The notes under the pieces are model-generated. The model saw nothing but the letters and a program-made list of their open reading frames with translations. It was not told the DNA's origin and did not search any database. Shown piece after piece: positions 1-10,912 of a stretch of 64,000 nt of DNA. The stretch's first letter is position 1; each line of letters opens with the position of its first letter. The translations under genes and the position numbers were made by a program. Source of the stretch: Picochlorum sp. 'celeri' (taxonomy: Eukaryota; Chlorophyta; Trebouxiophyceae); the NCBI GenBank assembly GCA_010909725.1, contig JAACMV010000015.1, positions 62,001 to 126,000 of the forward strand, written 5' to 3'.

Positions 1-1915
1 TCTTCTGTTTCTGATACCATTTTTTGTCATCGAAGAAGGCTTGTTGCAGTTGGGGCCACATAGAAACTTGGAATCTGTAACTCTCAAAAATTTTCTCAAG
101 ATCTACTGTCTTGTATGTTGGCACAGACACCCATGCAGGACAGTATTCAGACATCCTTTTCTTTATTTTGGCTGTATACTGTTTCTGACTAGATAAGAAG
201 ATCCATTCTCCTGACCCCAGAGAATCACTTTTATATCTGTCTTCCACCTCTGTATGACGACCATTTTCTGCATTCCACTTTGCATGGATCTTTTGCTTTT
301 CCGAATCATGAAAAACCCACGTGGCCGCTGACTTTTTACCTGGGTCCAAACCGACAATGATACAATCTGTGTGATATATACCATGGTCATCTTTGCGTAT
401 GCCAGCCAACCTTTTGATCCTTTCTGTGATGACTGTCTTGTCTTTGTTTTTAGCCTTTCGTTTCTGTAGAACGTCCTTTTGTGACTTTAATGTATGCAAC
501 AATGGCTTCAGTAGAACATAATGTATGGTGGAAATGTCACCAAGGAGAATACGCAAAGGGTCATATCTGATCTTTTTTGCAATAATGTTGGTTGCAAACA
601 TCCCACAATAGGTGGCCCACAACTTTGCTTTGACGTAATTCATATCATCCTGCAGATGGATTATCTTGCATTCCAGATCCGACTTCACAGTGTCTATAAC
701 AGCAGAAACAGAGACGCCATCAGTGCATATAGAGCATCCGAATCTGAGTTTCGTTTGGTCCTTCATGTGCTTTTTTTTCAATACTCGCTTCATGTTGAAT
801 ATCGATTTCCAATAATAATACTTATTTGTATAGTCATCCAGTGCTGGACAGTCATCTACTATCTTTCTGATATATGGATATTTCTTTGCGAGTTGCTCAA
901 CCATAGTCTTCACTGCTGTGCTGGAGATATGGATATGCTTTGGTTTCCAGGCCATCTGTGGACACAGACAAAATGTCCATTTCTGTCTTCCAAGTATACT
1001 CTTCTTCCCTTCAAACTCTCCGTTTCTGAACCTCTGTTGCAGTGATTCCACGAATGGCTCCAAGTGACCCAAAATGAAGAAGCAAATTCTGGATTTCTCA
1101 GAAAGAGTTGTCGTCTTTGGCACCAACGAGCAAATGATATCCAAGGCTCTCTGTGCTTCATCCCATACTGACACATCAGACGCAAATTCTGTCAATGATG
1201 GTCTACGTTCAACAATATCACTGACTTTCGTCCTCTCCCAGAATGCCTGTGTGATTGCAGAAAATACTTGTCCAAACTTCTTCTTTGACAAATTTTTGAT
1301 TTGGTCAAAGTCCGTGTCGTCTCGAAATAGCAAATATCTCAGATACCGTAATGCATATACATTAAGATTGGTTTCCAAATGCGTGGTATGCATAACAGAC
1401 GACTGCTGGGCCATCTGCTCCATTGTTTTGTCTCTCCAAGAAGAGAGACAACCCTGTGGCCAATCTGTTTTTAACCCAGTCTCCTCACAATATTCCTTGC
1501 ACAAGTCGCGCAAGTTGGTATCAACATCCTTTCTCTCCTTCTTTTGTTGCAAATGATTAGCAAGGTGTCTGTAGATTTTGTTGTAGAGTTCGTAGAGAGA
1601 TTCATCTTTGTGGTCTCTAAATGCCCCACCGTTCCTCAATAACAATAGATGCATGACATGATGCGCATGAATCTGTAGTCTACTCAGGTAGAATACACAT
1701 TCTTCAATTTCGCGTTGAACCACTTTGAACTTACAAAAAGGCTGCAAAGTGCACTTGACGACTGTCTTATTGAAAAAACGGTCTTTATCCTTCTTTATAG
1801 CCACATCCAATCGAGTAAACTTCTTTTTCTTCACCTTTTTCGATGGTGTGGCGGACACCTTTCTCTTTTTTTTCATTTTGAAATGACACGGTTGGCGATG
1901 GCGGCTCGACTTCAT
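1..1915 (-). CDS. Fanzor-family RNA-guided nuclease (eukaryotic TnpB-like), 3' end beyond window
   Basis: One uninterrupted frame of 638 codons runs from the ATG at 1915 down to base 1 with no stop, so the C-terminus lies outside the window. The N-terminus is very basic: KKKRKV (residues 15-20, like the SV40 nuclear localisation core) followed by KKVKKKK (26-32). A long helical region follows, then a TDGVSVS motif (about 398-404), typical of the wedge/RuvC entry of Fanzor1 proteins. Next comes VGLDPGKKS, in which Asp524 (codon 344-346) fits the first RuvC catalytic acid. RuvC II/III and the zinc finger would lie to the left of the window. The frame shows no internal damage, although it is long and in transposon-type sequence. 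A stop at 1970-1972 closes the frame upstream. Family assignment is from motifs recognised by eye; an unrelated RuvC-like transposase is the main alternative. Confidence 0.82.
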   Translation of the reverse strand, partial: MKSSRHRQPCHFKMKKKRKVSATPSKKVKKKKFTRLDVAIKKDKDRFFNKTVVKCTLQPFCKFKVVQREIEECVFYLSRLQIHAHHVMHLLLLRNGGAFRDHKDESLYELYNKIYRHLANHLQQKKERKDVDTNLRDLCKEYCEETGLKTDWPQGCLSSWRDKTMEQMAQQSSVMHTTHLETNLNVYALRYLRYLLFRDDTDFDQIKNLSKKKFGQVFSAITQAFWERTKVSDIVERRPSLTEFASDVSVWDEAQRALDIICSLVPKTTTLSEKSRICFFILGHLEPFVESLQQRFRNGEFEGKKSILGRQKWTFCLCPQMAWKPKHIHISSTAVKTMVEQLAKKYPYIRKIVDDCPALDDYTNKYYYWKSIFNMKRVLKKKHMKDQTKLRFGCSICTDGVSVSAVIDTVKSDLECKIIHLQDDMNYVKAKLWATYCGMFATNIIAKKIRYDPLRILLGDISTIHYVLLKPLLHTLKSQKDVLQKRKAKNKDKTVITERIKRLAGIRKDDHGIYHTDCIIVGLDPGKKSAATWVFHDSEKQKIHAKWNAENGRHTEVEDRYKSDSLGSGEWIFLSSQKQYTAKIKKRMSEYCPAWVSVPTYKTVDLEKIFESYRFQVSMWPQLQQAFFDDKKWYQKQK

Positions 1916-2095
1916 ACCAATCCAAGGTTCTAGAAGATTCGGATTGACCAGAGTCAAATGGACTAGATGTTACATTCCTTAATTAAACGAAATTTAAAAT
2001 TTTTACGGTATGTTTGTTTTCACCGGTACAACACACCTTCGCAACAACACTGTGTTTTAAACTTTATTTTCCGAATATATATTGTATACATATAC

Positions 2096-3403
2096 TTACT
2101 CTTCGAAGCTAACACGAATGCGGCGCCAGCGAGAAGATACTTTCACAAGAAGGTTTAAAAATTCACGGCTGGAAGATACCGCCACTTGACTTCTGGAGTC
2201 CATTTGGCCTTGGTTCATGTGAAATGTACACCGATCTAAATATACTTTATCTGAATTTAAGAGGGGTACAAACACGTATCTCTCTACATATTCGTACCAT
2301 TGCTGTCCATTGACCGCAATATCAATCTCTGTCAATCGTAACAACAGTTCAGCAGGTATCCGGAACAAATACTCAGCTGGTATCCACAGCTGCTTGCATC
2401 GATCGCCGATATCATCTAAAAATACACTCAAGATGGATATTTTCAAAACTTCAAGATGAGAACCTTGACTTGGCATGCTGATTTTATCAATGCCAGAATT
2501 CCTGATGTCGACATGCTGTATTCCTACTGGAAGCTGCAACGACCTCAAAGGATTCCAAGCCAAATCTCTAACTTCAATGTGCTTCAAATTCTCGCAATGA
2601 GATGCATCAATTGTGTCATCGATGACAAATGCATCTCTCGTGCCGTCACATGAGGAAATAACAAGTTTTTCCAAACTCCTGCAAAGTATCGCACTGTTTA
2701 TCCATGAATTAATTGGTGCATGGCAATAGCAATGTCGAATCTCCAGCGATCTCAAATTCGGCAAGGATACAATTGGCAAATCATCGTTTGGGTTGGTTGC
2801 AATGTACGTATTCGACAAGCTCAACTTCTCCAAGTCCATTGGCAACTTTCTGTCTGTGAGCACCAGAGAGGTGGTATCCCAACCGAATATTTTCAAGTTT
2901 TTCAATGCCACAAAATCATGAAAACTTATTTGATGCTCTATATGCTTTGTTCTGTTGATCACCAATGTGTGTATTCTCAGGTTCAGGCCACTCTCGCAGT
3001 TCATGAGCAGTTGCAACAACCCACTAATGTCCTGGTGATCTTTCAGCACGACCGTTGTGGCGCTGTCATCCTCTTCTGCATGCTCAACCTCACATGATTT
3101 ATTAGCCGTCTCACCGGATATGATGCAAATGTGTTTGGCATGGGCAATATGCCTTCCACTGCAGAACCTCAAGTACTGGTCCAGTTGGTCTTCCCGTAAC
3201 GTCACCTCGTGACGACGAAACAACACATGTACTTCTTTATCGTTCGTATCATAGTCCAATGAATTTATGAGACTCAAACCGAGACGGTTAAGGAGTGTCT
3301 TTGATGTCGCCAGGCAAAACCTCACTCGATCCTTGATATCGAGCAGATGGGTGCCCACGATGCGCTCCAAAAGATCCGTGGGCAGGTTTTCCATTGGTAT
3401 CAT
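2096..3403 (-). CDS. F-box protein with leucine-rich-repeat-like C-terminal region
   Basis: This 435-residue intronless protein opens with an F-box (about residues 5-45: LPTDLLERIV, then a helix ending in SKTLLNRL). The rest is a series of irregular LRR-like units such as LEKLSLSNTYI, LRSLEIRHC, LEKLVISSC and LKHIEVRDL. F-box proteins bind SKP1 in SCF ubiquitin ligases and LRRs usually bind the substrate. The target cannot be told from sequence. Met4 is an alternative start (MENLPTDLL). It lies on the same strand as the Fanzor gene, whose start is 180 nt past this stop, and looks like an ordinary host gene. Confidence 0.8.
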   Translation of the reverse strand: MIPMENLPTDLLERIVGTHLLDIKDRVRFCLATSKTLLNRLGLSLINSLDYDTNDKEVHVLFRRHEVTLREDQLDQYLRFCSGRHIAHAKHICIISGETANKSCEVEHAEEDDSATTVVLKDHQDISGLLQLLMNCESGLNLRIHTLVINRTKHIEHQISFHDFVALKNLKIFGWDTTSLVLTDRKLPMDLEKLSLSNTYIATNPNDDLPIVSLPNLRSLEIRHCYCHAPINSWINSAILCRSLEKLVISSCDGTRDAFVIDDTIDASHCENLKHIEVRDLAWNPLRSLQLPVGIQHVDIRNSGIDKISMPSQGSHLEVLKISILSVFLDDIGDRCKQLWIPAEYLFRIPAELLLRLTEIDIAVNGQQWYEYVERYVFVPLLNSDKVYLDRCTFHMNQGQMDSRSQVAVSSSREFLNLLVKVSSRWRRIRVSFEE

Positions 3404-10671: not shown

Positions 10672-10912
10672 TTACTCAATTATTGAACAGCACTATAGAG
10701 AAGTATGTCCAATGGACAGCATTTGGGTCAGGAGGTTTTTTTTTCATCCCTACGTAAATCTCTAAACATTTTATTTAGGGATTTCCTCCTGGGGGCCTGA
10801 TTGTCTTGGATGATATTCGTCATATTTTTCGCCTGTGTAATATATCCCAAAAAAAAAAAGAAAGAAATGTACATAGTACTCCATCATTGTGATACATTGC
10901 AATAATAAAAAC

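Follow-up and report, generated by a model that had tools for sequence, protein, structure and literature searches.

An intact Fanzor1 gene in a probable non-autonomous Tc1/mariner-pogo transposon of the diploid alga Picochlorum sp. 'celeri'

The left edge of a 64,000-nucleotide stretch of the Picochlorum sp. 'celeri' genome (C15:62001-126000, the window in what follows; GC content 46.7%) encodes an intact Fanzor1 protein, which is confirmed from its sequence by both Fanzor fingerprints (DPG and the relocated RuvC-II glutamate) and by catalytic and zinc-binding residues that are in place. The window belongs to an assembly of 27.41 Mb in 30 contigs (designated C). The Fanzor gene is the sole gene of a 2.57-kb element, termed family A, and it is probable that this element is a non-autonomous transposon of the Tc1/mariner-pogo class, in which a predicted RNA from the right end would act as the guide of an endonuclease that cuts unoccupied sites.

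The minus-strand reading frame runs from ATG 1915 (or ATG 1876) to base 2 of the window without a stop, which amounts to 638 codons from ATG 1915 and bears out an earlier note, made from the sequence alone, that had described a stop-free frame of at least 638 codons. TDGVSVS and the RuvC-I motif VGLDPGKK with Asp524, on which that note based its Fanzor assignment, are both read in frame (724-704 and 346-344). The note had made an active-looking locus conditional on an intact 3' part; left of the window (C15:56001-66000, L009) the frame stays open for a further ~0.43 kb and reaches a normal stop codon at C15:61564-61566 with no frameshift. The protein thus measures 783 aa if it starts at ATG 1915 and 770 aa if it starts at ATG 1876; the latter start is favoured, because most homologues reaching that far open with MKKKRK, MGKK or similar; the MKKKRK stretch at the N-terminus presumably resembles a basic nuclear localisation signal. 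The features of the locus are:

1..2010, remainder to C15:61441, minus strand: window portion of the 2.57-kb family-A Fanzor element; homology between unrelated loci ends here, and the terminal inverted repeat (TIR) pattern matches C15:61441-61466 and C15:63985-64010
1..1876, on to the stop at C15:61564-61566, minus strand: Fanzor1 coding sequence, N-terminal and middle part, with an MKKKRKV start at 1876 and an alternative ATG at 1915 (frame, alignment)
344..346, minus strand: codon of the RuvC-I catalytic Asp in VGLDPGKK (D523 in alignment A1; D524 from ATG 1915), invariant in 17/17 aligned sequences
704..724, minus strand: TDGVSVS motif; T397-V402 invariant in 17/17 aligned sequences
1985..2010, minus strand: left TIR, TA-CCGTAAAAATTTTAAATTTCGTTT (element-end comparison, TIR pattern search)

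Left of the window, the 3' part supplies the RuvC-II Glu within NEF, the cysteines of the zinc finger and, within WDRDVNAS, the RuvC-III Asp, all in frame, as the note had proposed to check. A protein search yielded 17 matches: P0001, which represents the family of the query itself, and 16 further proteins with 45-54% identity over 88-97% of the query. In an alignment of the query with these 16 homologues, the catalytic and zinc-binding residues are invariant in 17/17 sequences at about 50% divergence, so the frame is not a chance one; judged from the alignment, conservation at such divergence shows long-term constraint on the Fanzor of family A. The Cas12f1-like TNB domain scores above its Pfam cut-off in the full-length protein and was not found when the truncated window part was scanned alone, and a fold search with the predicted structure ranks solved Fanzor1 structures first. 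Neither outcome that would have contradicted the note, namely profile hits to another family or RuvC II/III residues lost or frameshifted, was seen; a Glyco_hydro_4C match lies below its Pfam cut-off. A single-sequence phmmer search against the PDB did not find Fanzor. Precomputed Pfam PF26935 is attached to 12/17 of P0001-P0017, and it is not listed in the Pfam scan of three of these proteins.

The class assignment agrees with published expressions. A RuvC-I DPG together with a RuvC-II Glu six residues before the zinc finger, as described in PMC10711439, is found in 7/7 sequences drawn from family A and its relatives (families A and B and four family-C frames, see below), with the second cysteine pair being Cx4C, not the CxxC of that source; the expression used here allowed both. 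The pattern D-X(125,275)-[TS][TS]-X-X-C4 zinc finger-X(5,50)-RD given in PMC3627910 is likewise present in 7/7. The Fanzor2 hallmark, an IS607-type element with TnpA, was looked for at this locus and not found. Furthermore, the catalytic and zinc residues of family A correspond to those described for proteins shown to cut (PMC10432273, PMC11423790). A viral locus was considered and rejected, IMG/VR yielding three relatives at 40-41% identity in the C-terminal part only.

Over the whole genome, the TNB profile marks 26 places: 19 of family A, which is the window's own, 2 of family B (one site, C20/C5) and 5 of family C. One further family-A copy on C21 was recovered through its TIRs, giving 20 copies for examination, and C22 holds an additional fragment retaining the left end. 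BLAST comparison of the window locus with the other copies shows homology ending at both edges of a block of ~2,570 bp; it continues through the flanks only in the copy on C27, which is homologous to C15. The ends of the element are inverted repeats that start with TA-C(C/A)GTAAAA, with variants, and finish with ACTG-TA. TIRs with TA outside are found in the family-A copies keeping both ends; in a few copies the left end is shortened. A genome-wide search for the TIR pattern that tolerated up to 3 mismatches gave 48 occurrences, against 0 for the reversed control, and on C2 and C22 similar TIRs enclose a 0.53-kb element that has no Fanzor. The earlier note mentioned neither this multicopy element around the gene nor its transposase-bearing relative.

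The spread of the family-A element is recent. Between sites, the copies are separated by 1-16 substitutions, with a median of 10 (72 comparisons among 13 copies, omitting site 8 and the five copies of the C1/C13/C21/C29 group). The frame is uninterrupted in 13/20 copies; in the remaining 7, of which 5 lie on C1/C13/C21/C29, it contains indels that are for the most part single-base ones. On these counts the reading of family A as a decayed relic was rejected. Site 8 (L026/27) has a diverged patch of ~170 bp, probably derived from gene conversion, and a 2.75-kb insertion near the left end. Among 15 copies, 56 coding substitutions were counted, none of them nonsense; nonsynonymous to synonymous changes stand at 22:9 outside the patch and 12:13 inside it, with 4:1 expected by sites. 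The ratio outside the converted patch does not clearly depart from neutrality, and selection within family A is weakly resolved by these counts. The insertion in the left end of the copy at C15:917 kb (L026:480-3230) is a repeat whose unit measures ~2.5 kb; this repeat is also found in tandem on C1/C13 and C14 and beside the C1/C13/C21/C29 copies (L013, L018, L021, L024).

The likely source of mobility is family B. Its element (C20:34488-40512, 6,025 bp; L029, L038) codes for a protein of 893 aa, in which a DDE_1 domain scores 49.3 bits (cut-off 22), and then for Fanzor B; DDE_1 domains occur at 8 places across the genome. The frames of its C5 counterpart (L028) are broken by indels. The terminal 59 bp of the A and B elements are 80% identical and the two have an exact 16-bp leader segment in common. 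Since B combines transposase and Fanzor with related ends and a shared leader segment, the simplest reading of these sequences is that A probably arose when a B-like element lost its transposase, and that it is mobilised in trans. TIRs flanked by TA are a hallmark of the Tc1/mariner-pogo class. TA flanks are also described as a Mariner hallmark in PMC3627910. Family C (L030-L034, on C14, C10, C19, C11 and C4) has frames of 975-1034 aa in 4/5 places, with the Fanzor fingerprints kept, and sits in a repeated block of ~3.7 kb; BLAST of the family-C ends did not find an inverted repeat. Adjoining family C, a segment of 1.65 kb is inverted in C19 relative to its homologue C11.

An omega-RNA at the right end of the element is predicted from what is known of the family. 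The stretch from stop codon to right end measures 124 bases in A and 137 in B, and the two have short blocks in common around the stop and the TIR. As to the structured non-coding end that the earlier note proposed to look for, expecting the guide RNA downstream of the gene, folding supports structure in the B tail (z -3.4 from the stop codon, to -1.7 with upstream sequence) and not clearly in that of A. A second, likewise indirect indication comes from the insertion sites. In 11/11 distinct family-A left flanks an A precedes the left TA (background 0.383, p = 2.6e-5), these flanks including L012, the L013 group and L045, which have chimeric surroundings, and the fragment L043; the bias holds in the 8 cleaner flanks (p = 4.6e-4), and the 0.53-kb element has A at this position as well. 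A mirrored T on the right is found at 1/7 cleaner sites. Such a one-sided A is not predicted by a symmetric target preference of a transposase, and a target-adjacent motif (TAM) requirement could account for it; the TAM reported for SpuFz1 is CATA (PMC10432273).

Several observations weigh against the reading as a guided nuclease on a transposon. Folding gives the A tail no unusual degree of structure (z -1.2 when started at the stop codon, -0.1 to +0.8 over longer stretches), an Rfam scan found no family in the window, which does not include the 3' end, and in family B the left TA is preceded by T instead of A. In addition, an unoccupied paralogue of the C4/C30 site (L047) is without the TA, and duplication of a TA target is to that extent unproven. 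This paralogue was the only sequence to match across a junction in the search for clean empty sites, which gave none for 8 joined insertion sites (40/73 candidates scored). One unoccupied counterpart was found for a single flank: C15 at ~5.05 kb (L039) corresponds to the right flank of a C27 copy and has one TA present, the ninth base after the TA differing from the flank of the C27 copy in this single case.

The distribution of the copies can be read against the published genome of Picochlorum celeri, described as phased diploid (27.43 Mb, two sets of 15 scaffolds, 46% GC, 0.8% SNP (single-nucleotide polymorphism) heterozygosity) and as polished with long reads only (PMC7225527). Shared flanks pair the contigs as C15/C27, C11/C19, C2/C22, C4/C30, C8/C17, C5/C20 and C1/C21 plus the small C13/C29. 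Full-length family-A sites are on both homologues in 8/9 cases. The C27 copy at 12.7 kb (L012, ~10.5-13.6 kb), whose right flank is unoccupied in C15, has on its left side a repeat of many chromosome ends; C15 has other DNA where the C27 end has this repeat, reflecting a rearrangement or an assembly join exactly at the element.

Allelic copies, aligned at seven sites over about 2.5 kb, differ by no substitution in five pairs and by one in two pairs, and the flanks of three such pairs differ by 0.3-3%. In these three (L009/23, L010/11 and L014/22) the nearest SNP lies 83, 17 and 31 bases from the element, so that the phases look resolved, and 1/7,644 substitutions inside the element compares with 107/9,000 within 1.5 kb on either side. 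Most of this signal comes from L010/L011, the most divergent pair, whose flanks are partly non-collinear further out (7.2% overall); without it, the other two pairs give 1/5,140 versus 21/6,000 (p = 4e-5). Five pairs without L010/L011 and L026/27, possibly including unphased sites, give 2/12,851 versus 31/15,000 (Fisher p = 6e-7). The dips in the flanks are not symmetric around the elements. As controls, bit scores put the divergence of the homologues at ~0.4, 0.6 and 1.4% in three window genes, and the family-C Fanzor alleles, with 26 differences in 3.5 kb, are as divergent as their flank (28/3,811). The family-B alleles show 0/4,793 substitutions and 13 indels; since no SNP is found over 1.25 kb beside the element, family B may be unphased, as may L015-L017 and L026. 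With near-identity inside and SNPs close outside, the element seems, from these comparisons, to have undergone exchange between homologues at the three sites after the homologues diverged. Furthermore, the C11 allele is identical inside to the C19 copy, including a change at position 1119 private to both among 15 copies, and lacks the first 66-67 bp, with flank bases 1-16 after the TA replaced by AG. SpuFz1 is reported to cut the non-target strand after bases 16 and 17 (PMC10432273). A Fanzor cut with end joining fits the C11 loss; two deletions plus conversion fit as well.

In the proposed mechanism, the transposase of element B would act in trans on the family-A TIRs, and the right-end RNA, extending through the TIR into flanking DNA, would serve as omega-RNA, so that every copy would take its guide sequence from the DNA to the right of the place where it inserted. 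Guided in this way, Fanzor would cut the unoccupied site (a motif ending ATA on the left) in the sister chromatid or homologue, and repair would restore or spread the element. Natural homing (a gene drive), in which an insertion on one chromosome provides the guide for cutting the homologue that lacks it and the element is then copied onto that homologue, is entertained as a tentative and rather doubtful extension. Homing would explain 0-1 substitutions in 7/7 allelic pairs against the divergence of the three flanks, the 8/9 sites on both homologues, the loss of bases 1-16 in C11 beside an identical copy, and ATA on the left only; as read from the sequences, allelic near-identity and the C11 loss are suggestive of such a signature. 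It is fairly probable, however, that the near-identity reflects ordinary allelic gene conversion, loss of heterozygosity or an assembly effect, with unphased stretches in both phases or mixed repeat reads. L015/25, L016/19, L017/20, L026/27 and family B adjoin or sit in SNP-free stretches, as unphased sequence would, and several copies carry single-base indels in a genome for which long-read-only polishing is described (PMC7225527). Yet the three pairs with close SNPs keep their contrast between element and flank, and the family-C alleles are not homogenised.

The transposon reading itself has two competitors. That copies spread mainly through subtelomeric duplication and ectopic recombination, not transposition, is very improbable, even though 7/9 sites lie within 70 kb of a contig end (p about 3e-5 if 14 chromosomes are assumed) and signs of recombination at the element are seen at certain junctions: some left junctions are chimeric, e.g., that of the C27 copy at 12.7 kb, and the C1/C13/C21/C29 group has right flanks in common and left flanks that are not. 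At most sites, non-homologous loci lose homology at the TIRs, with unrelated flanks, and related TIRs bound both the 0.53-kb Fanzor-less element and the transposase-bearing element B. It is also improbable that Fanzor is a passenger without a nuclease role, kept for e.g. regulating transposition while RNA-guided cutting is idle. The weak structure signal of the A tail would suit such a passenger, but its catalytic and zinc residues are invariant in 17/17 sequences despite their divergence and match those described for cutting proteins (PMC10432273, PMC11423790). Fanzor1 as a guided nuclease on a non-autonomous transposon remains the preferred reading.

Outside the element, an open reading frame at 2096-3403, upstream of it, has weak leucine-rich repeat matches below cut-off. 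A dispersed repeat of ~180 bp occupies window positions 10683-10862; among the 44 places reported to match it, some reach 99-100% identity. A 15-kb window query returned nothing but a dispersed repeat.

For P. celeri, a diploid alga described as fast-growing, Cas9 and Cre tools have been published (PMC12301381, PMC10808502). Its genome offers near-identical Fanzor copies, a transposase-bearing relative and one single-homologue site with an unoccupied right flank opposite, which makes it directly testable in the native host whether Fanzor is a homing system, a safeguard of transposon copies or without effect. Passages of the listed papers naming Fanzor and Picochlorum together, in a search that largely leaves subscription journals uncovered, place no Fanzor in Picochlorum, and titles and abstract openings on Fanzor with homing, gene conversion or gene drive hold no report of Fanzor homing between homologues.

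Compared with SpuFz1 of Spizellomyces punctatus, as described in PMC10432273, the identity is 14-15%, the family-A flanks read NATA, not just CATA, and omega-RNA and cleavage are predicted here. The proposed homing resembles the TnpB gene drive outlined for IS200/605 in plasmids (PMC11870625), where the guide records the insertion site and element-free copies are cut; that system concerns bacterial plasmids, whereas here homing is proposed only, between homologous chromosomes of a eukaryote. Going by its description, the Auxenochlorella Fanzor repeat (PMC12633428) is alike in being an abundant Fanzor-encoding repeat of a diploid trebouxiophyte alga, and unlike family A it is called uncharacterised there. 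The closest parallels are the Fanzor1-carrying Mariner elements with TIRs and TA flanks, PUl-1, PUl-4 and PGv-1 (Bao & Jurka 2013, PMC3627910), of which, by that account, some have a Mariner transposase and some are Fanzor-only with matching TIRs. Fanzor-only Mariner elements are thus already known, and the novelty is a further such element in an unusually clean setting: in another host, with near-identical copies in a phased diploid genome, and with a transposase-plus-Fanzor relative and a Fanzor-only element side by side.
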